A stretch of 26,455 nucleotides of DNA from a virus. The stretch covers positions 1-26,455 of the IMG/VR virus record IMGVR_UViG_3300049215_000804; one strand, written 5' to 3'. Position 1 is the stretch's first letter; the number at the start of each line of letters is the position of its first letter. Made by a program: the position numbers and the translations under genes. The notes under the pieces are model-generated. The model worked only from the letters and a program-made list of their open reading frames with translations, did not search any database and was not told where the DNA came from. Of this stretch, positions 5,291 through 25,487 are shown one piece after another.

Positions 5291-6127
5291 TTACTTCGTG
5301 GCTGCGATCGCTGAGCCATTTACTACTACTCCAGGGTCAGCTACTGCTGGTTCACTCGCACCATAGCTAATCCCGGCTTGAGTAAAGTGGCTGTTATATA
5401 TTGGTGTCGTAGTTTTGTTGTCGCTTACCTGCCAGGCCGGACTCGATACCACATCAATTGCGCGCGACACCTGGTCGCGCTGGCTGAATATCGTAACTAC
5501 GCTGTCGGCCGGCAATTGCATTAACGTTGCAATTGGCGGCGCGTTGAACCACAGCGAGTCGAGCAGGCATCGTACAGGTTTGAAAAAGTTGATCGCCGCA
5601 ATGATTCGGTTCGCGTCTGTATTTCCTACCGTCTGTTCATTGCTAATATTGAGGACCACCCTGAAAACTGCCCATCCTTCTGCTGCAGGATAGCTCGTCC
5701 CGCCCCAGCTGCTTTGGCCTTCTTGTAGCACCACGTTGTTCCAACCGAGCGATCCAAGAGCCGTTTTGATCGAATAGGGAGTCCCTCTCGTCCGATGTAG
5801 TGGAATCGCCGCCTTGAGCAGGGCCCGCAGTGAATCAAAATCTGAGGGTCCTACCATGTCGCTGCTCGAACTAAGCGTATCGATATTAGTTAGCGCGTCG
5901 ATATCCGTTAATGCGTCAATCGATTCTCCGGTCGAGGCGCCGAGCTGCCACTCTGGCGCTAACATATCGAACTGCCATGCAAGCGGCAGCAGCGCGCTGT
6001 CCGGCGCCGAGTCGAGGCGATAAACCAAAATGCCTGTCAGATCGATGCTATCGAGACGCGACAGTAGCTGCAGCAGTGACTGTCCGCGAAGATCGTTGAT
6101 CGATGGCTGAACTGTAAGTTGTGGCAT
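5291..6127 (-). CDS. Baseplate/tail protein I (P2 gpI-like)
   Basis: A 278-residue protein in the gpI position, directly after the J halves and before the fibres. In P2 and Mu, gpI-type proteins (Mu gp48) link baseplate wedges to tail fibres. The N-terminal region, starting MPQLTVQPSINDLRG and followed by LLPLAWQFDMLAPEWQ, fits the family pattern of a hydrophobic Trp-rich segment. The next part (FDSLRALLKAAIPLHRTRGT, then IKTALGSLGW) is also typical of it. I chose the ATG at 6127, 5 nt after the J stop; a longer frame opens at 6190 but would overlap the J 3' end by about 58 nt. Three tandem 18-nt repeats encode IDALTD, IDALTN and IDTLSS in a linker between the two conserved parts. The C-terminal ~100 residues extend beyond the usual P2 length and are unassigned. 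Confidence 0.8.
   Translation of the reverse strand: MPQLTVQPSINDLRGQSLLQLLSRLDSIDLTGILVYRLDSAPDSALLPLAWQFDMLAPEWQLGASTGESIDALTDIDALTNIDTLSSSSDMVGPSDFDSLRALLKAAIPLHRTRGTPYSIKTALGSLGWNNVVLQEGQSSWGGTSYPAAEGWAVFRVVLNISNEQTVGNTDANRIIAAINFFKPVRCLLDSLWFNAPPIATLMQLPADSVVTIFSQRDQVSRAIDVVSSPAWQVSDNKTTTPIYNSHFTQAGISYGASEPAVADPGVVVNGSAIAATK
5867..5920 (-). repeat. Three tandem 18-nt repeats in the gpI-like gene
   Basis: On the minus strand the units are ATTGACGCATTAACGGAT, ATCGACGCGCTAACTAAT and ATCGATACGCTTAGTTCG, encoding IDALTD, IDALTN and IDTLSS. The units have diverged at synonymous positions, so the duplication is not recent and the peptide repeat appears to be maintained. Confidence 0.8.
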
Positions 6128-6132
6128 CGCTG

Positions 6133-6669
6133 CTAACTGCCAATCGGACCCGTTGCTTGCGACAGCGCAATCGACGTGCAATTCGCCCATTGGCCGGCAG
6201 CTAAGGCGCGATATGCCGGGGCGGTCAACACTACTTCATAGACACCCGTTACTGAGAGCGCCTCTACGATTTGGCTTGGTACAATATCTCGCTGGATTCG
6301 CGACGCCAGCGCGATCGCGAATTCCTGCGCCGCGGCGTTTGCCGCCGCCATCGTGCTCACCGGGTCCGCGTCGCTGTATAACGTCACTGTCCCCGTGATC
6401 TGGTAATCTACTTCGACCACCGGCAACACATTGACCGTGTCCGTCAATGGCCTCACGTTGTCGGCGCTGAGCTGACTTAGTATCATTCCGAGCAACGCCG
6501 GGCTCGCGACTCCAGCGTTATTGGGACTCCCGGAAGGTTGCGTGTTAATCGGACCCGTCAGCACGTACACGTTCACTTGCCCGGGCGCGGGCGATGTTAC
6601 CTGAGCGTCAATTATCGACGAACTCGCGCTTAGCGCGAAAAACCGGTAGGCACCCTCTGGACCTGCCAC
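6133..6669 (-). CDS. Baseplate protein J, C-terminal part (after in-frame TGA)
   Basis: This is the 3' portion of a baseplate J gene. It is in the same reading frame as the upstream part (6697..7302), separated only by a TGA codon and nine further codons (I-Q-A-A-P-N-E-F-S). The Baseplate_J family signature 'FSVAGPEGAYRFFAL' spans the junction, so this piece does not begin at a natural domain boundary. The open frame can start at GTG 6669, with a weak GAG 6 nt upstream, giving 178 residues. The body (VLTGPI near residue 40, VRPLTDTVNV, then a long ASRIQRDIVPSQIVEAL segment) is the usual J C-terminal wedge region. Reinitiation at GTG 6669 or readthrough could make it. Otherwise it is a relic. 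Confidence 0.75.
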   Translation of the reverse strand: MAGPEGAYRFFALSASSSIIDAQVTSPAPGQVNVYVLTGPINTQPSGSPNNAGVASPALLGMILSQLSADNVRPLTDTVNVLPVVEVDYQITGTVTLYSDADPVSTMAAANAAAQEFAIALASRIQRDIVPSQIVEALSVTGVYEVVLTAPAYRALAAGQWANCTSIALSQATGPIGS

Positions 6670-6696
6670 GCTGAACTCGTTGGGCGCGGCTTGTAT

Positions 6697-7302
6697 TCAC
6701 CCCCTCAAATGATCGTCGCTTTCCGGCGCAGCCCCTCCTCCACTTACATTCGTATTCGTCACCGCTTGAACCAAGACGCTCGGATTAAGTTGGACGTTGA
6801 TCTGTCCGGGCAAGTAGCCGTTCGCTCCGGGCCCCGCAGTTAAGGCGCTTGCTGTAACGCTCCCGCTAGTTACCCCGGGCGCGAACGTCAATGCCGTCGT
6901 CGTTGCGAAGATATACTGCCCATCCGACGTTCCTACCTGGCTCCCCGCCGGAATCGTGTAAGAAACGTCCAGACTCGACGCCAAGCTGAATTCGAGAGTG
7001 GTGACAGCACTCTGTGCGCCGAGCCTATTCACTCCTAGCAGCTGGCCTAAATAGTCGATCATCGGAAAAGTAGCGTAGGCTAGCAGATTCTGCTGCCCCG
7101 CGTACTGGATCGCATTGCGCACTAGCGCTTCTCGATAGGCATAAAGATTAATTAGCAATCGCTCGACTTGCGCGGGCTGCAAGGTGCGCCCTGCCGCCGT
7201 TTCGAACTCCGCTACCATGTCCGCAAGGATAAGATTAGGATCCAATCCGTTAGCATCATTCACAAAGATTGGAGGTGGTAATACAGGAGGTGCCGCCGCC
7301 AT
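6697..7302 (-). CDS. Baseplate protein J, N-terminal part, ending at an in-frame TGA
   Basis: A 201-residue N-terminal portion of a P2 gpJ / Mu gp47-type baseplate wedge protein. Recognisable parts: LILADMVAEFETAAGRTLQP, RNAIQYAGQQNLLAYA, then YLGQLLGVNRL, all typical of J N-termini, and the strand-rich middle TIPAGSQVGTSDGQYIF. It stops at TGA 6697-6699, directly after 'ESDDHLRG'. The family usually reads ESDDxLRERI there, so the stop falls within a conserved helix. Sequence after the stop continues in the same frame with strong family similarity. Undisrupted, the protein would be about 389 residues, near the Mu gp47 length. Possible causes: a nonsense mutation (for example CGA to TGA), a base-call error, or regulated readthrough. 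Many other genes here end in TGA, so genome-wide recoding of TGA is unlikely. Confidence 0.8.
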   Translation of the reverse strand: MAAAPPVLPPPIFVNDANGLDPNLILADMVAEFETAAGRTLQPAQVERLLINLYAYREALVRNAIQYAGQQNLLAYATFPMIDYLGQLLGVNRLGAQSAVTTLEFSLASSLDVSYTIPAGSQVGTSDGQYIFATTTALTFAPGVTSGSVTASALTAGPGANGYLPGQINVQLNPSVLVQAVTNTNVSGGGAAPESDDHLRG

Positions 7303-7358: not shown

Positions 7359-7826
7359 TTACAAACCCATCCCGATCGACGCTAGCATCACCGTAGTATT
7401 CTGTGGCTGCGCTCCGATACCCGGAGCTACTTGACTACCGCTCAGCGCCAGCCGCCAGGTGGCTGTTACACTCAGATGGGCGCCCGACTGTGGCGTGCTA
7501 TCGACTACCGGTGCAATAGCTATTTTCAATAGCTTTACGCGGGGTTCCCACTGCAAAATGGCTTCCGTCATCTCTCGTACCATGGCCGGTCTCGCTGCCG
7601 GCAAAGGGAAATCGAGGTATCGCCAGACATCTACCCCGAATGTCGGTCTGAGCGGATCCGACCCTTTCGGAGTCGTCAGAATGATTCGGATGCATTGGTC
7701 CACATCCTGCAACCCCTGCACGACGTTCCCCAATCCCGAGCCCGCACCGCCGCCAGCCGTTGCATCAAGCATCAGAGACCAATCCGCCGAAACAAGGTCG
7801 GCCAAAGTAATCGCGCCGCTTGGCAT
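7359..7826 (-). CDS. Baseplate wedge protein W (gp25-like)
   Basis: A 155-residue protein of the GPW/gp25 family, which forms the baseplate wedge core and nucleates sheath assembly in contractile tails. The diagnostic core is present: DVDQCIRIILTTPKGSDPLR, then RPTFGVDVWRYLDFP, then EAILQWEPRVKLLKI. In T4 gp25 and P2 gpW the 'IL.TP.GsrplrP.fG' stretch is the most conserved region. The ATG at 7826 has a strong GAGAGGGG Shine-Dalgarno sequence 5 nt upstream, overlapping the end of the V-like gene. It lies between V and J, the usual P2 order. The N-terminus is Gly-rich and slightly longer than in P2. Confidence 0.9.
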   Translation of the reverse strand: MPSGAITLADLVSADWSLMLDATAGGGAGSGLGNVVQGLQDVDQCIRIILTTPKGSDPLRPTFGVDVWRYLDFPLPAARPAMVREMTEAILQWEPRVKLLKIAIAPVVDSTPQSGAHLSVTATWRLALSGSQVAPGIGAQPQNTTVMLASIGMGL

Positions 7827-7835
7827 TAGCCCCTC

Positions 7836-8375
7836 TCAGCTCGCCTCAACGATCGCACTGGCGCTATTAATCGTGCCCGTGCCTGCCGGACAGACCACCG
7901 TATCTCCCAGCCTCGCTACTCCCTTCAGCATCCCGTTTCCTAGCTTGATCTGACCTCCTGCCGAAATGCTGACGTTGCCGATACTATCAATTTGGATATT
8001 CGCCCCATTCGCGTTGATGCTTACCTGTCCGCCTACCGGCAAGTTTATTGCCAGAGTGTGCGTCCCTCGATCGTATTCAACGCTGCCGCCGTCTTTCGCA
8101 GTCCAATTTACTTTGTCGCCGGACATCCCAGCTATGGTCGTGTCGGCGGTGGAGTAAACCGCCCCTAACACCACGCCGTCCTCGTCGAAAGCGTCCATCA
8201 GACAGACTACTTGCTCGCCTATATCAGGAAGAAAATACATCTTGTCATTCTGGCTCTTGGCCACCACTACTGGCAGCCACCAGCTCATCAGTTGATCTCG
8301 TTCGGGAAAGCGTACTCGTACTCGGCAGCCGGACACGTCCTGCGCTGCTACTATTCCTACTCGTAACTCGCTCAC
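7836..8375 (-). CDS. Baseplate assembly/spike protein V
   Basis: A P2 gpV-type central spike protein that would puncture the outer membrane when the sheath contracts. N-terminal OB-fold-like segment: GCRVRVRFPE, then WWLPVVVAKSQ, then FLPDIGEQVVCLMD. The C-terminal beta-helical stretch includes SINANGANIQIDSIGNVSIS. The last ~30 residues (ARLGDTVVCPAGTGTINSAS) look PAAR-like. I prefer the GTG at 8375 (179 residues) because AGAGG lies 7 nt upstream and the family's fold begins there. An ATG at 8423 would add 16 residues but has only a weak ribosome binding site. It lies after the D-like gene and before W. Confidence 0.85.
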   Translation of the reverse strand: MSELRVGIVAAQDVSGCRVRVRFPERDQLMSWWLPVVVAKSQNDKMYFLPDIGEQVVCLMDAFDEDGVVLGAVYSTADTTIAGMSGDKVNWTAKDGGSVEYDRGTHTLAINLPVGGQVSINANGANIQIDSIGNVSISAGGQIKLGNGMLKGVARLGDTVVCPAGTGTINSASAIVEAS

Positions 8376-8435
8376 TTTTACGCCTCTCGTTGGCCATGCG
8401 CCTTGCCTTAGGTTCTGCCCCATTAACTCATAGGC

Positions 8436-9422
8436 TTACAGTTGGCGAGCTTCTATCGCTGTTGTATAGCCCGTGCTCCGATTGAGGCTGTGCCGCGCCG
8501 TCTCGATTAGATAGTTGCCATCCTTGACGCCAAACCCGCCGATCGTAATTACACTTCCAGCCGCCAGGATTGGCATACCCTGCGTCACCAGTCTCATCGT
8601 CCGTTGTTTCATATTGGCGGCGTGCAAGGCGCTTTGTGCTTTCAACGCGGCCTGCTGACCGTCCTCACAGCGTACTCGACGCTTCAGCGAATCGCCGCTG
8701 GCCGGCGCAGGCGTTGCTACCAGCGCTTGGCTCACCAGTTCCTTGGTCGCCAACTGCTGATAGCTTACTTCCGCTGCCTGGTAAACCTCGTGAGTCTTAT
8801 CGACAAAGTTGAAGCTGAGAATATTCGATCTACCCAATGAAATAACTGGGGCGGACCCTTCGAGAGCTGCCACCGCATAGAATACTAGCTGATTGCCGCG
8901 CACGGTGAAGTCATAACCATGTGCAACCGCTTGCCTCTTCAGAAAGCCCAAGTCCGTTTCTTCCCGTTGCGTTACTCGACTGAACACGACATCAGGCGTG
9001 TTGGATGTCCCTAGGAAGGTAAACGAGTACGACTCTGCTATCCCCTGCGCAATCGCGCTGAGGCTCTGATTTTCGTAGGCAGCGCTTTTCAACGTTCTCA
9101 TCGCCGGGGTGATCCACGCTGCCAGACATCGGATGCGGAATACGTCAGGCGGCCCCTCCAACTCCAGCTCATCGACTTGAAAGTCGCCGCAAGGAAGCAA
9201 CTCGCCCTCCTCGTAGCCCATCTGTAGATTTACTACGTCTCCTTGCTGTGGATACCAGGGTCCCTGCCATAACTTCTGCGCGTCTTCCAACTCCACTTCG
9301 ATCTCACCCGCCGCCGCACTAAGCCGATCGATATATGCCACGCTCAAAGTCATCGGCGAAATATTCGTGGTAATATCTACGCCTTTATAGGTCAGGACAA
9401 ACTTCGGCGTTGATACGATCAT
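8436..9422 (-). CDS. Tail hub protein D (P2 late control gpD family)
   Basis: A 328-residue homologue of P2 gpD / T4 gp27, the trimeric hub joining tail tube to spike. In P2 the family was named for late control, but the structural role is general. Supporting motifs: ITTNISPMTLSVAYIDRLSA followed by IEVELED near the N-terminus, GDVVNLQMGYEEGE around 60-75, FQVDELELEGPP, REETDLGFLKRQAVAHGYDF around 150-170, and a C-terminal GMPILAAGSVITIGGFG that closes the second barrel. It is slightly shorter than P2 gpD. It starts 30 nt after the X-like gene and is followed by V, the arrangement seen in many P2-tail-type prophages. Confidence 0.9.
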   Translation of the reverse strand: MIVSTPKFVLTYKGVDITTNISPMTLSVAYIDRLSAAAGEIEVELEDAQKLWQGPWYPQQGDVVNLQMGYEEGELLPCGDFQVDELELEGPPDVFRIRCLAAWITPAMRTLKSAAYENQSLSAIAQGIAESYSFTFLGTSNTPDVVFSRVTQREETDLGFLKRQAVAHGYDFTVRGNQLVFYAVAALEGSAPVISLGRSNILSFNFVDKTHEVYQAAEVSYQQLATKELVSQALVATPAPASGDSLKRRVRCEDGQQAALKAQSALHAANMKQRTMRLVTQGMPILAAGSVITIGGFGVKDGNYLIETARHSLNRSTGYTTAIEARQL

Positions 9423-9452: not shown

Positions 9453-9677
9453 TCAGCTTGCCAGCTTCCAGGGTGGCAGATTTGTCGTCGCAGTCTGACT
9501 CAGTTGAATCAGTGGGATCACTATTTGGATGCCGGTTGCGAGTACCGCCGCGATCGGCGCCGCTGGATTCGCCGCTATGATCGGCGCGAACTGCGTGGGA
9601 TCCCCATAATAGGTCCACGCGAGCAGATCCCACCGTTCATTCGTTGTTGTTATATGCGTAACAAATGGTGCCGCCAT
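9453..9677 (-). CDS. Tail protein X (LysM-like)
   Basis: A 74-residue P2 gpX-type protein, small and LysM-like, which acts at the tail hub and binds tube or peptidoglycan. The segment ERWDLLAWTYYGDPTQFAPI followed by an AANP.AP.A run and GIQIVIPLI is the family pattern (wDl.A...YGd...yp.I...N......l.aG..l.iP). I chose the ATG at 9677 because AAGGA lies 6 nt upstream and the protein then matches the P2 length; an in-frame ATG at 9728 would overlap the U-like gene. It lies 13 nt after U and just before D, exactly as in P2. Confidence 0.85.
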   Translation of the reverse strand: MAAPFVTHITTTNERWDLLAWTYYGDPTQFAPIIAANPAAPIAAVLATGIQIVIPLIQLSQTATTNLPPWKLAS

Positions 9678-9690
9678 GACTGTCCTTCTT

Positions 9691-10341
9691 TTAGACCGGA
9701 CTGCGAACAATTGCGGATACCGGCACATCGGCTGCGATCATCAGCGCCGAGCCGGGACCGCTCGGCGCTGGATTGCCCAGCAACGGAGACAAACCAGCGG
9801 CGGTCATGATAGGTGCTGTGTAGATGCTCGCGCTCGCGATGTTTTCTCCTGGCGAACCTGCCGGTGCGATGTACGGTACTGTTCCGGTGGTTATCCCGCT
9901 GGATGCGACTACAGCAGCTATGGGTGCGAAGGATCCCGCCGGTAAGTTATTGGACCCCGAATTTTGTGTGGGCAGCCATTGCTTCAGACCCACTCGTACT
10001 GATACTGACACCGGATCGCCTACATCGCTCGTCTGTTTGTCAATCGTGCCTATCGAAGTGATGACAAAGTACCCTCGATGTACTCCATTGCCGAACACTA
10101 AGGCGCGCGCCTGGTGGTCCGATGCCGCCTCGAGCAGAGCCTCCAGTTGCGCTGCCGGGTTTGTGAAACTCACATGGAACAGAACGTCCAGCGTTACTGT
10201 CTCAAGTTCGTCGGCTATCCATTGTAGTTGCGACGTGTCTTCTACTACTCGATGTTCGGCGTAATGCCAGTTACGCTCTGCCGTGATCTGTTCCGGACCT
10301 GCCAGCGTTTCGAAGACTATATCTCCCAATACCGCGAACAT
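9691..10341 (-). CDS. Tail terminator-like protein U, with a C-terminal extension
   Basis: A 216-residue protein of the P2 gpU family. Residues 1-125 carry the family pattern: MFAVLGDIVFE, RNWHYAEHRVVEDTSQLQWI, ETVTLDVLFHVSF, ALVFGNGVHRGYFVITSIG, then VSVRVGLKQW. P2 gpU is about 160 residues. Here roughly 80 extra residues rich in Gly, Ala, Pro and Ser follow (APIAAVVASSGITTGTVPYI and onwards), without recognisable domain structure. gpU-type proteins act in tail completion or baseplate-proximal assembly. It is placed directly after the tape measure and before X. The extension may be exposed on the tail surface; I have no evidence for a specific function. Confidence 0.8.
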   Translation of the reverse strand: MFAVLGDIVFETLAGPEQITAERNWHYAEHRVVEDTSQLQWIADELETVTLDVLFHVSFTNPAAQLEALLEAASDHQARALVFGNGVHRGYFVITSIGTIDKQTSDVGDPVSVSVRVGLKQWLPTQNSGSNNLPAGSFAPIAAVVASSGITTGTVPYIAPAGSPGENIASASIYTAPIMTAAGLSPLLGNPAPSGPGSALMIAADVPVSAIVRSPV

Positions 10342-10389: not shown

Positions 10390-11577
10390 CTAGAACTCAG
10401 TTCGCCGTTGCTTGGCCATTTCACGGTGTAGCATCTCGCTGATCTCCCGGCTGTGACTCAACAGTCCTGCGATGATCTTTCGGTCAATATCTCGATCAGT
10501 CAGCGTCGCGTTGATTATGACCGTCGGAGAATAGTTCAGGGTCGGTGCTGGATCGTTCACCGCCGGACGCCTGCTCAGGATTTGGTGCGCTCGTTCCGTG
10601 CGCGCGCCGCCCAAGTCATTCACTTCCAGCAGTAAAGCCGCGCGCCGCTCTCCTGCCGCTACCTGACGGTCTATCTCCCCTGGCGTCGCAAACCCATTCC
10701 CGGCCCCGTGAACTCTCGCCAACAGGGTTGAACTTCGCATTCGCCCTGTCACTTCATGAATTTTGAATCGCCCCAATGAATCAAGCTGAACTGATCCAAG
10801 CGGTTCACTCCTTGATAGTCCCCGCTGCCATGCGAGCAACTGCAACCCTCGCGCTGTTGGGATTGTCAATTTCCTCGTCGCTCGCTTATGCTCAAGCGTG
10901 GCATTTGCGACCAGGTAGTTAGTAGATCCAATACGCTTCGCTACGGGCGAGACTCCTTGTACTGCTTCCTTTCCGATTCGGCCTGCATCGGCGATCAAAA
11001 CTCTTCGGCTTCTATCCTGCGTGTCGAAAGCTTTCGCCCCGTGCACCCATTGCTTCAAGGCAGAAAGTGACTCATCGAGCCATTGCAGATTCGCTGGATC
11101 GTAACCTGCGATCCTCTTTCTCTGTATGATCCTCTCCTGCTTTCGCCCGCCACCTATAAGCGCTTTTGGAGCCCTGTTCTCCGTAAGTTTGCTATTATCT
11201 CTGAACAATTCGTTTGATCTTGCTTGCCCGGTTATCTCTTCTAGTCTCTCGGCCAATTTTAGCGCGTCTCTAACCAGCCGGTATTGATGGTCGTGGCCTC
11301 TTGTTTCAAACCCTTCTTGCTCCTGCGGCCCCCCTTCCGTGCTGGCGCTGCGATCATCTTGGAGGTTTCGCTCGGCTCCGTTTTGATACCGCTGCTGACG
11401 CTTACCTATGACCGGGCTAAATTGCCGCGCTGGCAGTTCCTTCGGTATCCCTTCGATTCGGGCCAATCCAGCATACCCCTTGGCGATCCGTATTAATGAG
11501 TCGCCAGCGGCGCTAAGTGCCGCGAGAGCGGCTCCCAAACGAGCCATGCTGCGTAAGTCAGTCGATCCTGCTCTCAT
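10390..11577 (-). CDS. Tape measure protein, short
   Basis: A 395-residue protein in the tape-measure position between E/E' and U. The N-terminus is an Ala-rich helix (GAALAALSAAGDSLIRIAKG); the middle is polar and strongly charged; the C-terminus has the usual ending of phage tape measures, NYSPTVIINATLTDRDID followed by a basic helix ending AKQRRTEF. It is much shorter than P2 gpT (about 815 residues) and has no long hydrophobic stretch that I can see. At about 1.5 angstrom per residue it would specify a tail near 60 nm. The ATG at 11577 lies 20 nt inside the end of the RRM gene with an in-frame stop just upstream, so it cannot extend further; an alternative ATG is at 11544. Assignment is by position and C-terminal pattern. 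Confidence 0.65.
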   Translation of the reverse strand: MRAGSTDLRSMARLGAALAALSAAGDSLIRIAKGYAGLARIEGIPKELPARQFSPVIGKRQQRYQNGAERNLQDDRSASTEGGPQEQEGFETRGHDHQYRLVRDALKLAERLEEITGQARSNELFRDNSKLTENRAPKALIGGGRKQERIIQRKRIAGYDPANLQWLDESLSALKQWVHGAKAFDTQDRSRRVLIADAGRIGKEAVQGVSPVAKRIGSTNYLVANATLEHKRATRKLTIPTARGLQLLAWQRGLSRSEPLGSVQLDSLGRFKIHEVTGRMRSSTLLARVHGAGNGFATPGEIDRQVAAGERRAALLLEVNDLGGARTERAHQILSRRPAVNDPAPTLNYSPTVIINATLTDRDIDRKIIAGLLSHSREISEMLHREMAKQRRTEF

Positions 11578-11878
11578 TCCTGCTGCTCAGACCGTTTGAC
11601 ATCGAGTGGTCCGATTTCCTTGCCGTCCGAGGTTTCGCTCTGCCTACCCGTATCGCTCGTCCCATTACCTCGCGGCCGTCTAGTTCTGCTACCGCACAGG
11701 CGGCATCTTCCTCCGTCATCATGTCAACGAAGCCAAAGCCGCGTGACATTCCCGTCCAGCGGTCTTTTATAATCTCCGCGCGCTCCACGCCTCCTGCCCA
11801 CTTGAAAACGTCGCGCAGTGCGTGCTCGTCAATGGCAAAGGCCAGATTACCCGCATATACTCGCCGGTTCGTAGTCAC
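11558..11878 (-). CDS. RNA recognition motif (RRM) RNA-binding protein
   Basis: A 106-residue protein with one RRM over residues 5-82 and a short basic/Ser-rich tail. RNP2 is VYAGNL (7-12) and RNP1 is RGFGFVDM (46-53), matching the consensus [RK]-G-[FY]-[GA]-[FY]-[ILV]-x-[FY] except for Met at the last position; the aromatic RNA-stacking residues Y8, F48 and F50 are all present. The ELDGREVMGRAIRV segment is the normal RRM beta-4 region. Small single-RRM proteins of this type occur in bacteria, notably cyanobacteria, as RNA-binding proteins. I know of none as a standard part of a phage tail operon. It starts at GTG 11878, 12 nt after the frameshifted chaperone stop, with a weak ribosome binding site, and overlaps the tape measure start by 20 nt, so it is embedded in the operon rather than beside it. 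Its target is unknown; the operon's own mRNA is a candidate. Confidence 0.9.
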   Translation of the reverse strand: MTTNRRVYAGNLAFAIDEHALRDVFKWAGGVERAEIIKDRWTGMSRGFGFVDMMTEEDAACAVAELDGREVMGRAIRVGRAKPRTARKSDHSMSNGLSSRNESRID

Positions 11879-11890
11879 AGTCTCAGTCGC

Positions 11891-12312
11891 TCACGCCTCA
11901 TGCTGCCTGCAGCTGACAATCGTTTTAAGCCAATGCTTCGCCTCAGCTAGACTCATCGTTTCAAGTTCACTTAAGGAAAACCCGAATCCTATTAGTTCGG
12001 CTATTGCCGCTGCGCTCAGGAGGCTGCCGCTTCGCTTCCCGGCGCTGCCCGAAAATTTGCGCCGCCTTCTCCTTCAATTACCTCGGACTGCAACATCAAC
12101 CCATCTGCTGCTGGCAGCTCAAGCAGATCTTCATAGACCGCCGGCTTGCCATCGAGCATTGCTACTTCGGCGACCAGCGCCAGCGCTAATGCCATTGGTT
12201 CGCTGCTAAACTGCGTCACGCGATGCGCCTGTAGGAGATCGCGTACCTTTGCCATCCGAAATGTCGCGCTGCGGCCCGAAGGTAGCATGATCGTTCTCGT
12301 GTCTTCACTCAT
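11891..12312 (-). CDS. Tail assembly chaperone, -1 frameshift product (E/E'-like)
   Basis: Fusion product made if ribosomes slip -1 on AAATTTT at 12052-12058. The first 87 residues are shared with the E-like protein. The frame then continues as S-G-S-A-G-K-R and so on for 53 residues to a TGA at 11891-11893, giving 140 residues in total. P2 E+E' is of almost the same size. The extension ends with FGFSLSELETMSLAEAKHWL, which resembles the short GpE family pattern (a Leu/Ser-rich 'SELxxMSLxELxxW' helix). Without frameshifting this reading frame would have no good start. Long-form chaperones in siphoviruses and myoviruses bridge the tape measure and tube during assembly. Confidence 0.85.
12016..12312 (-). 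CDS. Tail assembly chaperone, short form (E-like)
   Basis: A 98-residue protein between tail tube and tape measure, the position of P2 gpE and lambda gpG-type chaperones. The N-terminus reads as a phage tail assembly (gpE/gp41) protein: IMLPSGRSATFRMAKVRDLL, then an Ala/Leu-rich helix ALALALVAEV. It terminates at TGA 12016-12018, 11 codons after the slippery site. Most ribosomes should make this form and a minority the longer fusion. It follows the tube gene after a 65-nt gap. Confidence 0.85.
   Translation of the reverse strand: MSEDTRTIMLPSGRSATFRMAKVRDLLQAHRVTQFSSEPMALALALVAEVAMLDGKPAVYEDLLELPAADGLMLQSEVIEGEGGANFRAAPGSEAAAS
12052..12074 (-). promoter_or_regulatory. Programmed -1 ribosomal frameshift cassette
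   Basis: On the minus strand the zero-frame codons are GAA GGA GAA GGC GGC GCA AAT TTT. AAGGAG (12069-12074) acts as an internal Shine-Dalgarno sequence, followed by 10 nt and then the X-XXY-YYZ heptamer A-AAT-TTT (12052-12058). An internal SD about 10 nt upstream is the arrangement that stimulates -1 slippage in E. coli dnaX. The downstream region is GC-rich; I see only a weak 4-bp hairpin (GCCG/CGGC). Confidence 0.85.
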
Positions 12313-12377: not shown

Positions 12378-12896
12378 TTAGCCTCCTAGGTTACTTCTGA
12401 ATTGCGCCAGCTGATCGATCCCATTGACGACGTAAATGTTGGCCAAGACATCGTAAAGATGGATCTGCGCGCCGCCGATATAAAGCTCGGAGTGATACAC
12501 CGAAAGTGACGACGTGGTGTTCACGTTTTCATGCTGTTTCAGCGCAAGGCTGCCCGCGTCCTTGAACACCGCTGTCATCAGATATACAAACGGCAGTTGC
12601 GCGGTTCGTCCTTGACTGGTGTACTGGTCAAGGCTCCCTCTGACCTGGAATGAATGCGAAGTGAATGGGCTGTCCGCTGCATAGAGCGCCTCTGGATACA
12701 GCGACGCCCACTTGATTTTCGCTTCCAGTTTATCGACCCCTGCCCAGAACTCCGCAGTTCCTGCCATTCCCAGCGCCTTATGCTCCACCATCCGATGGCG
12801 CGGCTGCGCTAGCTCGATCTCCTCGGCTCGTCCTAGCAGGCCGACTCCGTCGATATAGATGTTAGCGTTAGTTAACCGATTGACTGATACGTCCAT
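12378..12896 (-). CDS. Tail tube protein (P2 FII-like)
   Basis: A 172-residue major tail tube protein, forming the inner channel of the contractile tail. The N-terminus (VNRLTNANIYIDGVGLLGRA followed by EEIELAQP) and middle (KALGMAGTAEFWAGVDKLEA) follow the FII pattern, in which a strand-loop is followed by 'G..G.....p.G...l...i'. FRSNLGG closes the protein. It is the right length for P2 FII (about 172 residues). It lies 55 nt after the sheath gene and before the chaperone, the universal order for this tail type. Confidence 0.9.
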   Translation of the reverse strand: MDVSVNRLTNANIYIDGVGLLGRAEEIELAQPRHRMVEHKALGMAGTAEFWAGVDKLEAKIKWASLYPEALYAADSPFTSHSFQVRGSLDQYTSQGRTAQLPFVYLMTAVFKDAGSLALKQHENVNTTSSLSVYHSELYIGGAQIHLYDVLANIYVVNGIDQLAQFRSNLGG

Positions 12897-12951: not shown

Positions 12952-14706
12952 TTAGGCCGTCGCCGAGGTTCCCATCAGCGCGCTGCTGGCGCCAAGTTGG
13001 GTCAATAAGGTCGTGTCGATATACACGTTAAACGTTACTCGCTCGGCCGGCGGCGGCGGCATTACGTCGATGTCGAACACCAATTGACCGGCGGCGATCG
13101 TGTTCGGTGGATTTTCCGCCGGATTGTAGGAGGCTGCGCCTGCTACCAGCGCGCCGCGCTGGATTAAAGTCCGGATAAACGAATTCACGCTCGCCAGGAT
13201 CGCTGTAATCAGTGCATTGCTAATCGGCTGATCCAGGAACTGTAACATCGCGAGCTCGACCGACTCCTCGATCACGTCCATCGTGCGCCGCACACTGATG
13301 AAGTTATCGGGTGTGGTAATCGTCGGATAACCCGCGCTCCGATTGCCCCACACTCGTAGCCCGGTGCCGAAAGCATTGAACACCGTCACGATGCCTGCCG
13401 AGTTCAAGTTGTTAACGTCTGACGCCGCGTCCAGGATCGAAGCATAGATCGCTACGTCCGGCCCCAAAATTCCGTTAACCGGCATGTTGGACGGCGACCA
13501 CCAGTATCCTTGCTGTAAGTCCCGCGCCGCGATCGCGCCGGCCACCCACTGTGAGTACGGCCCTATGGCATTGGCGTTCGCTTGGCTCTGCACCGGCGCA
13601 GTTCCATTCAGCGTCACGCCGGTCGGAACTACGCCCGTGTCAAAGAAGGTTTCCTGCGGATAACACAGAATCGTCCGTGTCGAGCTCGTGTCGAAAGCAT
13701 TCCCGTTCACGCCCCGATTCGCGATCGCCGCCGCCACTGTCGTGCTGGGCGGCGAGTCCACCAGCGCGATCCCCCTCATACTCCCCGCAATCGACGTTAG
13801 CGCCGTCGCAACGTCGGCATTCTGCGCGTACCCCGGCGCAATCAGCAGCTTCGGGAAGAAGCCCATAGTGCCATAGGTCGTTAGCCACGCCTGCATGCCC
13901 TTGTACGTGGACCCGGTCACTTCCCCAATAATGTCGCTGTCCTGGACTTTGCTCGGATCGGCATAGCTGAACGACGCAATCACCGTTGCGCCCGCCGGGA
14001 TTGTTCCTCCTGCTCTTAAAGTCGCAACTCCATTTACTAGGTCTGCCGAGTAATCCGCACTGCTCGAATAGGCCGTCCCCGAATAGTAGCTATAGCCGGC
14101 CAGCACCGCCTCAGTCGCCGTAAGTGCGCCGCTGGCGAGCCGGGTAATTAGTCCTGTTCGCGCGTCAACCGTGTAATCTGTGCCTTGAACATAGGTCGTT
14201 CCCGCCGGGTTGCTTGTCACCACGACCGACGACGCCTCGACGTTCCCATGCGTCAACTGGATAGTGCTCGGCGTCCCTGCAAAACTGTGACTTTCGCCGC
14301 TCACCGCCGTGGTCGCAACCGGCATCAAGACCAGATTGCTAATCCCCATGTGCCCTAGGTTGATCGCCCCCGCCGAACTGAAGGTAAACGACGCAACCAG
14401 GTCGCTGGTATGGATCGTCTCGTCAAACACATTAACCACGATAACCTGGCCGGCGCCTTGCGCTTGGATTGCCGCCAGCGCATACGGAATCGTGTAACCT
14501 TGCGTCACCGGTCCAAAGTTCGCCGCGTCCATCACTGAACTTACCAGCGTAGGCGAGTTTACTGCCGGAGCCGTCGCCGAAGGTCCAACTAGCCAGGTCG
14601 GCGCGGTCCCCACCAGACCTATCACCGACGATTTGACGACCGTTATTGGTGCTGGTCCGGTCGTCGTCTCGATTACTTCCACGCCATGAAGAAATGATGC
14701 GGCCAT
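12952..14706 (-). CDS. Tail sheath protein (P2 FI / Mu gpL-like)
   Basis: A 584-residue contractile sheath subunit. The N-terminus FLHGVEVIETTTGPAPITVV and the strand SVIGLVGTAPTW are the standard sheath start; the C-terminal region has WGNRSAGYPT, FISVRRTMDVIEESVELAM and FVFDIDVMPP-like endings (VFDIDVMPPPPAERVTF). The sheath fold is interrupted at residues 115-249 by repeat-type beta modules also found in the decoration and gp37-like proteins; that accounts for its size compared with P2 FI (about 396) and Mu L (about 495). The starting ATG is at 14706. It follows gp37-like after 78 nt. Confidence 0.93.
   Translation of the reverse strand: MAASFLHGVEVIETTTGPAPITVVKSSVIGLVGTAPTWLVGPSATAPAVNSPTLVSSVMDAANFGPVTQGYTIPYALAAIQAQGAGQVIVVNVFDETIHTSDLVASFTFSSAGAINLGHMGISNLVLMPVATTAVSGESHSFAGTPSTIQLTHGNVEASSVVVTSNPAGTTYVQGTDYTVDARTGLITRLASGALTATEAVLAGYSYYSGTAYSSSADYSADLVNGVATLRAGGTIPAGATVIASFSYADPSKVQDSDIIGEVTGSTYKGMQAWLTTYGTMGFFPKLLIAPGYAQNADVATALTSIAGSMRGIALVDSPPSTTVAAAIANRGVNGNAFDTSSTRTILCYPQETFFDTGVVPTGVTLNGTAPVQSQANANAIGPYSQWVAGAIAARDLQQGYWWSPSNMPVNGILGPDVAIYASILDAASDVNNLNSAGIVTVFNAFGTGLRVWGNRSAGYPTITTPDNFISVRRTMDVIEESVELAMLQFLDQPISNALITAILASVNSFIRTLIQRGALVAGAASYNPAENPPNTIAAGQLVFDIDVMPPPPAERVTFNVYIDTTLLTQLGASSALMGTSATA
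13960..14262 (-). repeat. Repeat-type beta module in the sheath, apparently nested
   Basis: Residues 149-207 form a complete copy (IQLTHGNV, YVQGTDYTVD, GLITRL, GYSY). It is flanked by an N-terminal half (INLGHMGISNLVL, residues 115-127) and a C-terminal half (TIPAGATVIASFSYADP). The two flanking halves together would make the copy usual in sheaths, so the complete copy seems to be inserted inside it. Read by eye, not by alignment software. Confidence 0.6.
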
Positions 14707-15624: not shown

Positions 15625-16083
15625 TCAGTAGCCTCGCAGCGTTCCGCGACTGAAGATGCGCGACGGCAGTATCCCTGATGGATCGCCGCCCGCTTCGGTC
15701 ACTACTGCTCCGCTCGCTTCCGGCGGCTCGATATTGTCCGCCGACAGCCCCAGCGTTACTTCCCCGCGCGCTACCTTGAGCAGCAGGCTTACCGCATCCT
15801 CGTAGCGCTTCCGCGCGTCAGTTACGTCGTGCGACGGCCGTAATGCCTGCAAGCGGTACATCGCGATATCGCAGGTTAGCCGATTGAGCACCGCCGGAGG
15901 ATCGAGCAGCGGCAGCGCGAAGCGTCCTTCTAGGTATCCGTCAATCTCTGCGCTCGCGTCATCCACTACTTGCTGTAGCGCCGTGGTGTTTACCGCAGTT
16001 TGCGTCGGATCCTCGTTGGTCAGCTGCACCAAATCGCGATTCGGATACCGCGCGACCATGTCATTCGGACTCGCGTAGCTCAT
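15625..16083 (-). CDS. Mu gp36-like head-tail connector protein (DUF1320)
   Basis: A 152-residue member of the Mu gp36 / DUF1320 family. Pattern: YASPNDMVARYPNRDLVQLT, ALQQVVDDASAEIDGYLEGR, FALPLLDPPAVLNRLTCDIA, then DARKRYEDAVSLL. These proteins resemble head-tail adaptor folds such as gp15/gp6-type connectors. It lies downstream of the major capsid after an 83-nt gap and directly before gp37-like, the Mu order. Confidence 0.88.
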   Translation of the reverse strand: MSYASPNDMVARYPNRDLVQLTNEDPTQTAVNTTALQQVVDDASAEIDGYLEGRFALPLLDPPAVLNRLTCDIAMYRLQALRPSHDVTDARKRYEDAVSLLLKVARGEVTLGLSADNIEPPEASGAVVTEAGGDPSGILPSRIFSRGTLRGY

Positions 16084-16166: not shown

Positions 16167-17123
16167 CTAGGCCAAATACTCGCTCACGATGAGCTGTGCG
16201 CTTCCTTTCCAGATATTCGACGTTGGAACCGTGGAGCTGCCGCCCGTTCCTACCATGAATTCCGAGTGCAGCAGCTGCCTTCCTACTTCCTCCAGCGCCG
16301 GCGGCACCAGCAGGTATGCGCTCGCTGGATCCGTTAGCGCCCCGAACGGTAGTCCGCCGTCTGTTTTGATCGATCGCATTGCTGTGCGCGCCGCCCCATA
16401 GTTCGCCGGCACGCTTAGATCAGTGTTGCTCGCATACGCCAGTTGCCATAGACCCACGCCCGTATTCGCTCGCCCATCGACGCCAAAGCGAAACTCGCGC
16501 CGGTTGAATACCGACTCATCCGTCAGCGTGTTCATCCGCGTCATCGTGTACTCGCGCCGCAACTGAAAAATAAACGGCCGCAACGCCCGTGAAGCATCGA
16601 TTAGGAACCACCACGGCCCGCTCCCGGTCGAGTTGATATTCGATGCTATCGTGTCGCGCACGTCGCCCCCCGCTCCCAGCGGCCCTACCGGATGCGTTGC
16701 CGAGAAGAACGGCTGGCCGTCGAAACCCAGCACGCTCCCCGGCGTGTTCACCGCGTTCTTGATCATTGTGAACAGCAGTACATCCGGATGCACTTTCGTG
16801 TCCCAGCCGAGTTGCTCGATGATCGGCTCGTAAACTCCGTAGTTGTCGTCTTCAATATCGTTGCGGTCGATGCTAATCGTATCTTCAAAGTTGCGATTCG
16901 CGATCGTGTAAGTGTGCGTCTCCAGCGCCTGAACGACCCGGCTGCCCAGCCACTCCCGAAACTTGGTCGTCCTTCCTAGCCACGGATAAGTGGTCTGCCG
17001 CGACGTTGACCGTACGACCGTCGCAATCTTCTCGTAATAGGACGGCGGCCGTTCGAAGCCGCGCTGAAAAATTACGTCGAATCCCGTGAATAGGGCAGTT
17101 AGATTTGCTGCTGTAATTTCCAT
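16167..17123 (-). CDS. Major capsid protein (Mu gpT-like)
   Basis: A 318-residue Mu-like major head subunit. Matching parts: ITAANLTALFTGFDVIFQRG at the N-terminus, YPWLGRTTKFREWLGSRVVQ around residues 46-65, ANRNFEDTISIDRNDIEDDN around 75-94, then LLFTMIKNAVNTPGSVLGFD and GQPFFSATHPVG. These are hallmarks of the gpT family. Mu gpT is 305 residues, so this is full length. It sits after the protease and decoration genes, as in Mu. No decay is visible; the ORF is intact. Confidence 0.93.
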   Translation of the reverse strand: MEITAANLTALFTGFDVIFQRGFERPPSYYEKIATVVRSTSRQTTYPWLGRTTKFREWLGSRVVQALETHTYTIANRNFEDTISIDRNDIEDDNYGVYEPIIEQLGWDTKVHPDVLLFTMIKNAVNTPGSVLGFDGQPFFSATHPVGPLGAGGDVRDTIASNINSTGSGPWWFLIDASRALRPFIFQLRREYTMTRMNTLTDESVFNRREFRFGVDGRANTGVGLWQLAYASNTDLSVPANYGAARTAMRSIKTDGGLPFGALTDPASAYLLVPPALEEVGRQLLHSEFMVGTGGSSTVPTSNIWKGSAQLIVSEYLA

Positions 17124-17977: not shown

Positions 17978-19123
17978 CTAAACTTCTACGAACGAAGATA
18001 AATGCGCGCCGGCGCTCGCGCGCGCGGCCTTGCGCTTGGCGAACTGCTCTCTGCCGATTCCCAGACGCGAGCACACCGCCCATTCAATCGCGCTCAATTC
18101 CCCGCCCGGCCCCATCTCTTCAGGCATTCCGTCCGCCCAGCTGCGGCGACGCGGCTTGCCTTCCACCGCTGCTACATTGAGCGCCAGCCTCGGCTGCCGC
18201 GCGACGAACTGCTGAAAGCCTTGATAATCCGCCCGGCAATAACTCAGCGCCCACTCCCGCTGCGCCGGCACCAGCTTTCCCGACCGGATCGCGGTTTCGA
18301 CCGCATTCGCAGTTCGCTCCTCCGCACTGCGCTCGCGCAGCTCGCACAATTCGCGCGCTGTCGCTTGGAAGGCCCCCGCCGCGACATAGTCCGCTTCATT
18401 CTCACTGTTCGAAGCGCTCGGCTGCGCGCGCTCTATTGCAGGTTGCGCGCTGCGCTGGCCTGTTTCGGCCAGCGGCCCGCGGCGCAAAGTCGCAATGATC
18501 TCTTCGTCGGATACGCCGGGCGACAGCCCGCATAGCTGCCGCAGCCGCTCAAAGCCAACGTCATCTGCACCGCCGGCTTCTTGCTGAGCGTTGCCCCCCT
18601 GGCTGGGCTTGCCTCCCCCGCCGCTCGATTGTTCGCGCGCAGCGATCGCTTTCAAATATAAATTCGGATTATTAGTCAATGCCGCTCTGAGTAAACGCAC
18701 GACTACTCCGTCGGCGTCGTGCTCGAATACGGGCGATATATACCGGTATTCTTTGGTCGCTAGCGCCGCCGCTCCATGCTGCGTCCACTCGACGCGTCCC
18801 CACAGCGCTCCTTCCCGTTCCGCCAATTCCTTGATCCATCCTGCCGCCGGCGCTGGACGCCCCTCCGGCGCCGCGAAATCGGTCGCGTGGTCGTAGTCAA
18901 TCGGGATACCCGCGTCCATCCGCAGCTTGCTCGTCGCCGCGGCTACCCGGCTCGCATCATCTAGCCGGTATGGCCCGCGTCCATCGCGCCCGTTGAACTC
19001 TCCTGCCGGAATCAACTCAATCCACGCAGGCGGCGGCTCCGCCGGCGCATCCTCCAGCGTTACCGCCAGCCTATGGATTTGCAGCGCTTCTCGCCCTGAG
19101 ATTACTTGCCCTGACTCGCTCAT
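17978..19123 (-). CDS. Capsid maturation protease/scaffold (Mu gpI-like)
   Basis: A 381-residue protein of the Mu gpI type. The N-terminal ~165 residues form the protease: IELIPAGEFNGRDGRGPYRL, GIPIDYDHATDFA (a likely catalytic His in DYDHAT), AGWIKELAEREGALWGRVEW, and YRYISPVFEHD followed by LLRAALTNNPNL. The remainder is Ala/Gln/Glu-rich and helical, as in the scaffold portion that in Mu is also made separately as gpZ by internal initiation. I did not find a decisive internal start. It lies directly after the portal (59-nt gap), so the minor head protein gpF that stands here in Mu is missing. Confidence 0.88.
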   Translation of the reverse strand: MSESGQVISGREALQIHRLAVTLEDAPAEPPPAWIELIPAGEFNGRDGRGPYRLDDASRVAAATSKLRMDAGIPIDYDHATDFAAPEGRPAPAAGWIKELAEREGALWGRVEWTQHGAAALATKEYRYISPVFEHDADGVVVRLLRAALTNNPNLYLKAIAAREQSSGGGGKPSQGGNAQQEAGGADDVGFERLRQLCGLSPGVSDEEIIATLRRGPLAETGQRSAQPAIERAQPSASNSENEADYVAAGAFQATARELCELRERSAEERTANAVETAIRSGKLVPAQREWALSYCRADYQGFQQFVARQPRLALNVAAVEGKPRRRSWADGMPEEMGPGGELSAIEWAVCSRLGIGREQFAKRKAARASAGAHLSSFVEV

Positions 19124-19182: not shown

Positions 19183-20574
19183 TCAGTTCCTCGCCAACTG
19201 ACTATTGTTGAGTCCTCGCGCCCTCAGCACCGCATCGTCCTCGCGCGGCTCCTCCAACCCCAATCGATCGAGCACCGACCTCTGGCTAATCCGCAGCCCG
19301 CGATCCGCCAGTTCCGCCACAATTTCCGCAAACACTTTGACGTCCTGATCGTCAGGCAGCGCCAGTTGCACCTGTGGATACCGCGCCTGCGGACCTGCGT
19401 TCAGATCGATCAACGGCTTGATCAGATCGCGCGTCAGCGTCGCTTCGAGCCGCAGCGCATCCGCCCCCAAAATATCGCGCCGCACCGCCTGATGAACTTG
19501 CGCGGCCGCCCGCGATCCTCCTCCGCGCGGCAACTCGGTCGTCAGCGTCTGCCCCAGTACCGCTTTGCTCACTTGCCGATCAAGAAAATCGCAAAATCGC
19601 TCATACAGCTCGGTGCTGCCGCTCTGCCGCGCCTGGTTAAACTCGATTAGCATTGAGTCGGGTATTATTGCCGCCGCGTCCGTGCCGATATTCGCCACCG
19701 CCTGGAGCAGCGCGCTCTTGTCCGCCTCCGTCGCTCCGGCTCCATACTTGCCCAACCGCAGCGGCTGCCCGAACACCTCGGCGTAAGTTACCCAGTCTTT
19801 CAAAATATAGTTCTTGAATAGGTAGGCCCACGCCGCCGCCCGCGCGATTCCTCCGCGAATTGGTAGTCCACTCTTCGCTTGCGCGTAATGTACGATAAAT
19901 TTGAAGGGTGCCAGTGGCGCAGTTAACGGCTGCCGTCCGATACTGCTTTCATCCCCCGCGCGCCTCCGGCCCAATGGCAATAACCGCGCATCCAGATGCG
20001 CATAGCCGGCCTCCCGCTCGATCGCTACGCTCTGGTTCTCCTCCTGCAACGTCCGCACCAGCAGTTCCCGCCCGCTCACCCAGTCGAATAAAAACCAGCG
20101 CGGATCTCGCCACAGCAGTTGCGCCGGATACCAGCTGCTTCCCGACATTTCCCACATAATCTCGGTCGCGGAAAATCCCTTGCCGATCGCATCCAGCATG
20201 TCGTATAGCGCCGGTCTTAGATTGAGCGCGCCTTTGAGTAAATACTCAGTCGCCATCTCCGCCAGCCGCACGTCCGCTGCCGCGCTCGACGCGGCGCGTA
20301 TCACCAGTTCGAGTTGTGCTACCGCCTGCTTCCGCGTATTCAGCACCGCAAGATAGTGCAGGTCCTTCTCCTCCATCTCTTCGGCCAACTCGAGATACTG
20401 AAAAGGATCGCCGAACTCCGCCTGTTGCAGCACGCCCGTCAGCTTCTCCGGCGTTAATCCGGCCGCCGGATGCATTACCGAGTAGATATTTCGCACGCCT
20501 GCCACGGTCGGGCCGGCCTGCTCCTCTTTCAGCCGCCCGATCGCGACTTCTCGCCCATACGCGTCGTATAGCAT
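19183..20574 (-). CDS. Portal protein (Mu gp29-like, DUF935)
   Basis: A 463-residue DUF935 portal, forming the dodecameric DNA gate of the capsid vertex. Matching parts: LTPEKLTGVLQQAEFGDPFQ, LAEEMEEKDLHYLAVLNTRK (a signature 'mee.D.hl.sv...Rk.av'), DAIGKGFSATEIMWE, PRWFLFDW, then FIVHYAQAKSGLPIRGG and WVTYAEVFGQPLRLGKYG. QTLTTELPRGG lies near residues 345-360. Mu gp29 is about 512 residues. The terminase stop is 7 nt upstream, with a ribosome binding site (GAAAGG) overlapping it. Confidence 0.93.
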   Translation of the reverse strand: MLYDAYGREVAIGRLKEEQAGPTVAGVRNIYSVMHPAAGLTPEKLTGVLQQAEFGDPFQYLELAEEMEEKDLHYLAVLNTRKQAVAQLELVIRAASSAAADVRLAEMATEYLLKGALNLRPALYDMLDAIGKGFSATEIMWEMSGSSWYPAQLLWRDPRWFLFDWVSGRELLVRTLQEENQSVAIEREAGYAHLDARLLPLGRRRAGDESSIGRQPLTAPLAPFKFIVHYAQAKSGLPIRGGIARAAAWAYLFKNYILKDWVTYAEVFGQPLRLGKYGAGATEADKSALLQAVANIGTDAAAIIPDSMLIEFNQARQSGSTELYERFCDFLDRQVSKAVLGQTLTTELPRGGGSRAAAQVHQAVRRDILGADALRLEATLTRDLIKPLIDLNAGPQARYPQVQLALPDDQDVKVFAEIVAELADRGLRISQRSVLDRLGLEEPREDDAVLRARGLNNSQLARN

Positions 20575-20581
20575 CAGCCTT

Positions 20582-22120
20582 TCACCATGTTCCGGCGCTG
20601 CCGAATCGTCCCCGGCGCCGCGTCGCCGCCTGCGTCTCGTCCATAAACTCCGCTTCCCAAATAGCCGCGGCGGGATTCGCCTTCACCGCTCGATAGCCAT
20701 ATTCACCCGCTGGCTCGCAGCTCGCGTAGTACGCCAGCGCTCCCGCGATCGCCGCGTCGCCATGACGGGTCCGGCCCCGCCTATCGACGCTCCGCCGCTC
20801 AGCTACTCGCGCTATCCCCTTCGTCACGGTTATCGCGCGATGGTCACTCAGGAGTTCGGCATCGCGCGGCAAATCAAACAGCCGATCCTCGAACGCCGCC
20901 TTGTAGCGGGGCATGTTGTCCCGATACCACTCCGCGGTGAGCATGACCTGCCGGATCCGCGCGCCGTAACGCTGCATCGCGCGCTCGGCTAGATACTGCC
21001 CATTGCCCCGTGCATCCATCGCCCCGCCGCTGAAGCGCGGCAGCCGATCGACCAGGTAAAAAAGGATTTCTTCCTGCTGCTTGAACGGGATATTGCGTAA
21101 TTCCACGACCAGCGGTGTATGCCGCCGCAGGTCCGCGCCGAATTGCAGCGGCCAAATCACCGTCAGGTCGCCCGATCGCCCAAAATCTTCCCCAAAAAAA
21201 CTTCGCGCATTCCGATCCAGTCCGGCCAGCGCCGGCCCGAGCCGCTCCTCGCAGAAATCCTGCGCTGCCCGGCTCCGCTCCGCATCCGGCAGCTGCGCAA
21301 ACTCCCCCGCCGTTTCCCAGCGCACCACCGGCGCATCTGCCATTCGCGACTCGATTAACAACGACGGCAGATACGCTCCGCCGCTCGCCTTCGGCACGCA
21401 CAGCAGCTCTTCGTCGGCGTCTTCCCCGTACTGCGCGAAAATTTCCGCGCGCCATTCTTCCTCCCGCGCGCTGCTCCACTCGATCCGCTTGATCTGGCAA
21501 ATCCGATGGAACAAGCCGTCTGCGATCGCATCGTCCAGCGTTATCCGATGGAGTGAGTAATCTTTGCGGCCCGCCCGAATCTCAGTAACTAGTTCATTGA
21601 AATAGCTATGCGCGCCGTTGTGCGTCGAAATCACCCGCACCGCGCCGCCCCACAACGTGAACGCCAGCGCCGCCTTCATCAGCTCCGGCAGATCGTCGTG
21701 GAACGCCGCTTCGTCGATCACCGCTCGTCCCTGCTTCCCGCGCAGACTCGCTGGACGCGACGACAGCGCCACGATCTTGTGGCCCGAGCTGAACTTGATC
21801 CGGTACGCCAGCAGGTCGCGCCGTTCATCTTCGACGGCGATTTGCTCAGCGCCATGCACGGCCTTGTTGAATTGCCGCGCCCAGCTCGCCGCCGTCGCGA
21901 TAAATTCCCGCGCCATCTCCTTGTTGTAGCCCAGGTACCAGGTATCGCAGCCGTTCTGCGCCGCCGCGTTCAGCACGCTGTCGGCCGCTTCCGTCCACGT
22001 GATCCCTACCCGCCGCGACTTCTCCGCCACCTTGACCGGCGCAGTGTCCGCGAGCCATCTCACTTGATACGGCAGCAAAACAGTTTGCGCGCCCTTGGCT
22101 ATTCTCGATATGTCAGCCAC
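20582..22120 (-). CDS. Terminase large subunit (Mu gp28-like)
   Basis: About 512 residues from the GTG at 22120; the open frame extends to an ATG at 22180 but that would overlap the gp27-like gene by 38 nt and precedes the family's usual start. ATPase motifs: Walker A-type AEKSRRVGITWTEA (about residues 33-46), Walker B GRAVIDEAAFHDD (about 130-142), then the coupling ISTHNG. The nuclease half has GEDFGRSGDLTVIW, DARGNGQYLAE and RHGDAAIAGALAYYA. This headful-type motor cuts and pumps DNA into the head. It follows the small terminase-like gene and precedes the portal, the Mu order. The ORF looks intact. Confidence 0.92.
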   Translation of the reverse strand: MADISRIAKGAQTVLLPYQVRWLADTAPVKVAEKSRRVGITWTEAADSVLNAAAQNGCDTWYLGYNKEMAREFIATAASWARQFNKAVHGAEQIAVEDERRDLLAYRIKFSSGHKIVALSSRPASLRGKQGRAVIDEAAFHDDLPELMKAALAFTLWGGAVRVISTHNGAHSYFNELVTEIRAGRKDYSLHRITLDDAIADGLFHRICQIKRIEWSSAREEEWRAEIFAQYGEDADEELLCVPKASGGAYLPSLLIESRMADAPVVRWETAGEFAQLPDAERSRAAQDFCEERLGPALAGLDRNARSFFGEDFGRSGDLTVIWPLQFGADLRRHTPLVVELRNIPFKQQEEILFYLVDRLPRFSGGAMDARGNGQYLAERAMQRYGARIRQVMLTAEWYRDNMPRYKAAFEDRLFDLPRDAELLSDHRAITVTKGIARVAERRSVDRRGRTRHGDAAIAGALAYYASCEPAGEYGYRAVKANPAAAIWEAEFMDETQAATRRRGRFGSAGTW

Positions 22121-22142
22121 GGCCTGATTTCCGCCCCTCTGA

Positions 22143-25424: not shown

Positions 25425-25487
25425 CACCGATGCAAGCTAGAGCACGGCCACGCTCCCCATAAGGGTGAAATATTTCCATTTCCTCTG

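Follow-up and report, generated by a model that had tools for sequence, protein, structure and literature searches.

An RRM protein conserved in the tail operon of a seemingly domesticated, Mu-like gene cluster of Candidatus Binatota

RRM proteins dominate RNA regulation in eukaryotes, but little is understood of what they do in bacteria. Bacterial single-RRM proteins, such as cyanobacterial Rbp1, Rbp2 and Rbp3 (PMC9333190) and the chromosomal RRMs of Candidatus Binatota, share domain, size and RNP motifs with the protein described here, but the latter and its relatives form a separate clade and are encoded in a phage-derived tail operon. Virus-encoded RRMs also occur in Microcystis phage MaAM05, Acinetobacter phage MD-2021a and jumbo contigs; these differ in being only about 35% identical and in having long tree branches, and none of those examined lies between a chaperone and a tape measure. 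A literature search, outside of which most subscription papers lay, found no paper on an RRM in a phage tail module.

Two known systems resemble the surrounding gene cluster. RcGTA-like GTAs (PMC6821227, PMC8987985) likewise consist of structural genes only, are mostly present as a single copy, are inherited vertically and are under purifying selection. The separation of portal and tail genes by other genes in one Binatota genome (G034) is also GTA-like. The Binatota cluster differs from RcGTA-like GTAs in being Mu-like and in having an RRM in its tail module. Contractile-tail phages of the Mu and P2 types have the same Mu-type head genes (gpT, I, Gp27, Gp36 and portal), P2-type tail order and frameshifted chaperone, whereas the Binatota cluster has no nearby transposase or integrase and contains the extra RRM.

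The stretch of DNA analysed, hereafter the window, comprises 26,455 nucleotides (positions 1 to 26,455 of IMG/VR virus record IMGVR_UViG_3300049215_000804). Its late cluster is encoded on the minus strand (Table 1).

Table 1. Features of the late cluster, listed in their order along the minus strand from its 5' end
Feature	Position	Strand	Basis or remark
Lysozyme (Glyco_hydro_108)	24885..25427	-	5' end of late cluster
Mu Gp27-like (small terminase position)	22143..22685	-	Pfam Phage_Mu_Gp27
Terminase large subunit	20582..22180	-	phrog_2
Mu-type portal	19183..20574	-	Pfam Portal_Mu
Mu I-like protease/scaffold	17978..19123	-	Pfam Mu-like_Pro
Mu gpT-like major capsid protein	16167..17123	-	Pfam Mu-like_gpT, E=1.5e-94
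Mu Gp36-like	15625..16083	-	Pfam Phage_Mu_Gp36
Tail sheath	12952..14706	-	Pfam Phage_sheath_1, phrog_23
Tail tube (FII)	12378..12896	-	Pfam Phage_tube, E=2.5e-38
Tail assembly chaperone (TAC), zero-frame product	12016..12312	-	Position; phrog_21320 (no assigned function), E=3e-12; conserved in relatives
Chaperone -1 frame extension (TAC')	11891..12058	-	Slippery AAATTTT 12052-12058, stop 11893-11891
Single-RRM protein	11558..11878	-	GTG start, 106 aa; RNP2 VYAGNL, RNP1 RGFGFVDM; short basic C-terminal tail
Tape-measure-like protein, 395 aa	10390..11577	-	Position and conserved C-terminal motif
P2 GpU-like tail protein	9691..10341	-	Pfam Phage_P2_GpU
Baseplate hub (LysM/X-like)	9453..9728	-	phrog_46
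GpD-like tail protein	8436..9422	-	phrog_52
Baseplate V and W/gp25	7359..8423	-	Pfam Phage_base_V, GPW_gp25
Baseplate J, split in two ORFs	6133..7302	-	Name J from gene order
Baseplate I	5291..6190	-	Tail_P2_I

The original prediction was that a gene in this tail operon encodes a clean single-RRM protein. The Pfam RRM_1 profile (PF00076) matched residues 7-77 over its whole length (positions 1-70 of 70; E=1.3e-17) with a score of 63.9 bits, well above the curated cut-off of 20.7, and both RNP motifs were exactly as predicted. No PHROGs family matched the protein. A PDB search returned RRMs of PABP, nucleolin, chloroplast cS22 and the HuR type. Structure prediction, which had been proposed as a check, also gave an RRM: AlphaFold with a 42-relative alignment predicted a beta-alpha-beta-beta-alpha-beta fold with pLDDT of about 90 over residues 11-80, and Foldseek matched this model to HuR, Cyp33 and CIRBP-type RRMs with probability 1.00. 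The RNP aromatics of the cluster RRMs were retained without exception (Y/F at position 8, F/Y at position 48 and F at position 50, each in 42/42). Because these RNA-contact residues are under selection, the protein likely binds RNA in vivo.

The predicted tight packing of the gene agreed with the coordinates: 12 nt separate the TAC' stop codon (11893-11891) from the GTG start codon at 11878, and the downstream ORF starts at 11577, giving a 20-nt overlap. The identities proposed for the two neighbours fared differently. The upstream gene is a chaperone with frame and slip site kept, as the -1 frame extension was present in 63/63 scorable elements, and 61/64 had the slippery heptamer A-AAT-TTT/C in frame. 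The name tape measure comes from position and the C-terminal motif; Pfam and PHROG searches with the ORF at 10390-11577 matched no family. The tape-measure-like protein is short and fast evolving and is conserved only in its last ~50 aa; it measures 257-498 aa in the Binatota clusters, compared to 728-895 aa for the majority of those non-Binatota relatives whose ORF is full-length, and it is gone altogether in several element lineages. Tandem short ORFs (MSLVGGTSPEGGAG...), perhaps duplicates of the N-terminal part of the tape measure, lie between chaperone and tape measure in some clusters that lack the RRM (L078, L027/L035).

Several other features of the window were recorded. Baseplate J is divided into two ORFs (201 + 178 aa), compared to a single ORF of 389-398 aa in relatives, which reflects either decay of the window copy or a sequencing error. 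An ECF-type sigma factor gene on the plus strand (25880-26455) flanks the 5' end of the late cluster and points away from it, and no counterpart was found at that position in ten genomes compared. Upstream of the lysozyme end, G001, G002, G003, G008 and G022 share a conserved helix-turn-helix, repressor-like gene (in L337, for example, ~4.9 kb into the tube-oriented stretch), which is a possible regulator of the cluster. There was no transposase or integrase among the window genes scanned, no Rfam match to known RNA elements, and no tRNA. The leader upstream of the RRM gene showed some conservation within one clade, which is suggestive at most.

Relatives were gathered by tube and capsid scans of viral contigs, which yielded ~145 loci. 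Using tblastn, an RRM was located just past the chaperone in 71 of the loci compiled up to that stage, the window's own included, with 43-66% identity. After removal of duplicate tubes and with at least 1 kb of downstream sequence required, 88 distinct tail clusters were scored; 66 of them carried the RRM at this site, starting a median of 566 nt past the tube. The window RRM had its closest homologues among the RRMs of other clusters, with identities of up to 65-66%, and the best host chromosomal RRMs by score were 46-54% identical to it. In a tree built from this short alignment, the deep forks of which are uncertain, the cluster RRMs formed one clade of 60 (bootstrap 98, SH-aLRT 48), to which none of the 28 Binatota chromosomal RRMs belonged. 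The pattern expected of a recent stray insertion, with relatives lacking the gene and all of its closest homologues in host chromosomes, was not what we found, and the RRM clade together with the shared site in 66/88 relatives rules out a stray host-gene insertion. Each host genome contained a total of 1-6 RRM matches, chromosomal RRM genes among them, and this chromosomal family is the likely source of the cluster RRM.

Median dN/dS was 0.047 for the tube, 0.078 for the RRM and 0.49 for the tape-measure-like protein, these being Nei-Gojobori estimates from non-independent pairs and, for the last, from a poor alignment. The value of ~0.08 points to purifying selection on the RRM. On the minus strand between 11400 and 12450, neither a promoter nor a terminator specific to the RRM gene was found. 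The view that the gene functions within the late operon and is not a random host gene therefore held up, as dozens of relatives share its site, its frame, the RNP residues and the purifying selection, and no separate promoter or terminator was found. Its tight packing and the absence of these signals suggest that it is co-transcribed with the late genes.

The carriers of the cluster that we found were exclusively Candidatus Binatota MAGs, mostly with one copy each; several were titled only Deltaproteobacteria or bacterium, and their phylum was inferred from the order search. The cluster was present in 28/41 genomes of one Binatota order (portal genes in 25/41) compared to 0/107 other genomes in the class. 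Flanking host genes were common to G004, G005, G006, G008, G010 and G011, to G023/G024, and to G001/G002. Distances between RpoB proteins and between tubes were correlated among 20 genomes (0.83, with 0/2000 permutations as high), and the correlation was 0.79 without two long branches. G035 and G001/G002 depart from the vertical, fixed-site pattern, and in G034 the portal and tube are ~23 kb apart. No Mu transposase C-domain or tyrosine integrase was found near the tube on the tube contigs, some of which are short or broken. Integrase-family matches on these contigs were only found ~59 kb (G023) and ~418 kb (G003) away, and the flanks consisted of host genes. Mu-transpos_C matches occurred in 5/16 genomes, all on contigs other than that of the tube.

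An active Mu-like prophage carries MuA/MuB-type transposition genes with its structural genes, and this combination was not found among the window genes scanned or on the tube contigs. What was found instead agrees with the gene-level features that published work asks of a GTA (PMC6821227, PMC8987985), i.e. head, packaging and tail genes, no adjoining mobility genes, vertical fixed-site inheritance and a tube under purifying selection (dN/dS 0.047). The cluster, whose hosts are represented by MAGs, thus looks like a domesticated, vertically inherited, Mu-like and GTA-like entity, although prophage decay under slow vertical inheritance may account for it instead. As to the earlier description of the locus as a phage tail operon, the tail operon stands, but it most likely belongs to a vertically inherited, domesticated, Mu-like Binatota cluster rather than to an active phage. 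A search for literature on Binatota prophages returned only a single plant-microbiome paper in which both terms occur.

A second, diverged cluster was found in G003 (C15, L410), a genome that also carries the first, and on contigs L475 and L476. Its tube, capsid and sheath are 49%, 47% and 42% identical to those of the window, respectively. Its RRM is also directly past the chaperone and shares 50-54% identity with cluster RRMs but only 41-43% with host RRMs. In the stretch covered, no RRM was present in about 28 non-Binatota loci whose tubes are related (40-48% identical to those of the second lineage). Annotated phage records contained distant RRMs only. A wider scan found RRMs in other phage contigs, many of them large, near glycosyltransferase, RdgC, FtsK or terminase genes. 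In two of these, L425 and L432, the RRM was near a tail protein, and these RRM stretches may be host flanks. In three other viral contigs (L428, L460 and L473) an RRM gene is located shortly before the terminase large-subunit gene, which may represent a separate capture beside packaging genes.

Our leading explanation, in which we place close to even confidence, is that a canonical ssRNA-binding RRM has become fixed in a GTA-like late operon, where it would most likely regulate or chaperone late mRNA post-transcriptionally. The RRM protein would be made together with the late proteins and would bind either the polycistronic mRNA of the cluster or, as a chaperone, RNA generally. This binding would then set late-mRNA stability or translation during particle building. 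That particles are made, and that the protein acts chiefly on late mRNA, are our inferences. Weighing against this explanation, no RNA target or conserved RNA structure turned up, the gene is missing from some relatives, and the chromosomal RRMs of the hosts could share a general RNA role with it. A bolder version is possible but doubtful: that Binatota have an order-wide, vertically inherited, Mu-like contractile-tail GTA that recruited an RRM as its own post-transcriptional regulator, the first in a bacterial virus-derived particle assembly.

The main rival to regulation of late mRNA is that the protein is a general RNA chaperone or stress protein, i.e. a copied host cold-shock-like RRM of the cyanobacterial Rbp type. 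It would work on RNA of the host, or on bulk RNA, during expression of the cluster and would have no specific target in the cluster. The several chromosomal single-RRM genes of Binatota genomes are consistent with this idea, as is the role of small single-RRM proteins of Synechocystis in cold and salt tolerance; Rbp1 and Rbp2 of this organism have nearly identical RNA preferences in vitro (PMC9333190). However, a gene acting on behalf of the host need not stay at one operon site, and the cluster RRMs have both a fixed site and their own clade. We consider this rival unlikely, if still worth serious attention.

The RRM was absent from 21-22 relatives, and its presence and absence require six changes on the tube tree. 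In G022 (L338) a decayed-looking remnant, LGFAEMTTSEDSEEASAEANDKGL, was read by eye, indicating loss there. Because of these absences and this remnant, we consider the RRM dispensable. Conversely, in ten elements that carry the RRM, the tape measure is missing from the interval up to GpU; the tape-measure C-terminal motif had no copy in nine of them and a weak match (E=0.011) in the tenth, L220, in which chaperone and tape measure are both missing and the RRM is intact. As the RRM persists without them, its role is not tied to either gene, and a specific partnership with the tape measure or chaperone is disfavoured.

These observations bear on the proposal that the RRM regulates the chaperone -1 frameshift or tape-measure translation through the adjacent mRNA. 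Although its gene is immediately flanked by the frameshift gene on one side and the tape-measure ORF on the other and the AAATTTT/C slip site is conserved, that site is unchanged in clusters that lack the RRM, which can retain both chaperone and tape measure, and the RRM outlasts the tape measure and, in L220, the chaperone as well. We regard such a role as improbable. RRM-like folds can also bind proteins. Reuse of the fold as a non-RNA-binding tail-assembly factor or minor particle component would suit the position of the gene among tail genes, but with the RNA-contacting aromatics kept in 42/42 and no RRM in the tail loci of other phages, this appears more improbable still. Binding of ssDNA, or handling of RNA or ssDNA cargo, during DNA packaging has in its favour that a similar PDB RRM chain, 2ki2 (12RNP2), is named ssDNA-binding and that the cluster encodes a terminase and portal; the RRM gene lies in the tail module, away from the terminase, and we give this option very little weight. 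Finally, that the gene is moron-like, or a passenger carried by accident in a mobile prophage, is scarcely credible: the RRM is patchily absent from about a quarter of relatives, but a moron has its own promoter and terminator and inserts variably, whereas this gene has neither on the minus strand, occupies a single site in 66 elements, belongs to a single clade, is under strong purifying selection and follows host-congruent inheritance.

A domain best known from eukaryotes is a conserved part of a tail operon, where no RNA-binding regulator was known. As a selected part of a phage-derived cluster, the RRM offers a compact system in which RRM-based control in bacteria can be tested. Judging by the hosts, metagenome contigs labelled 'viral' conceal a GTA-like system, so far undescribed, of an uncultured phylum.
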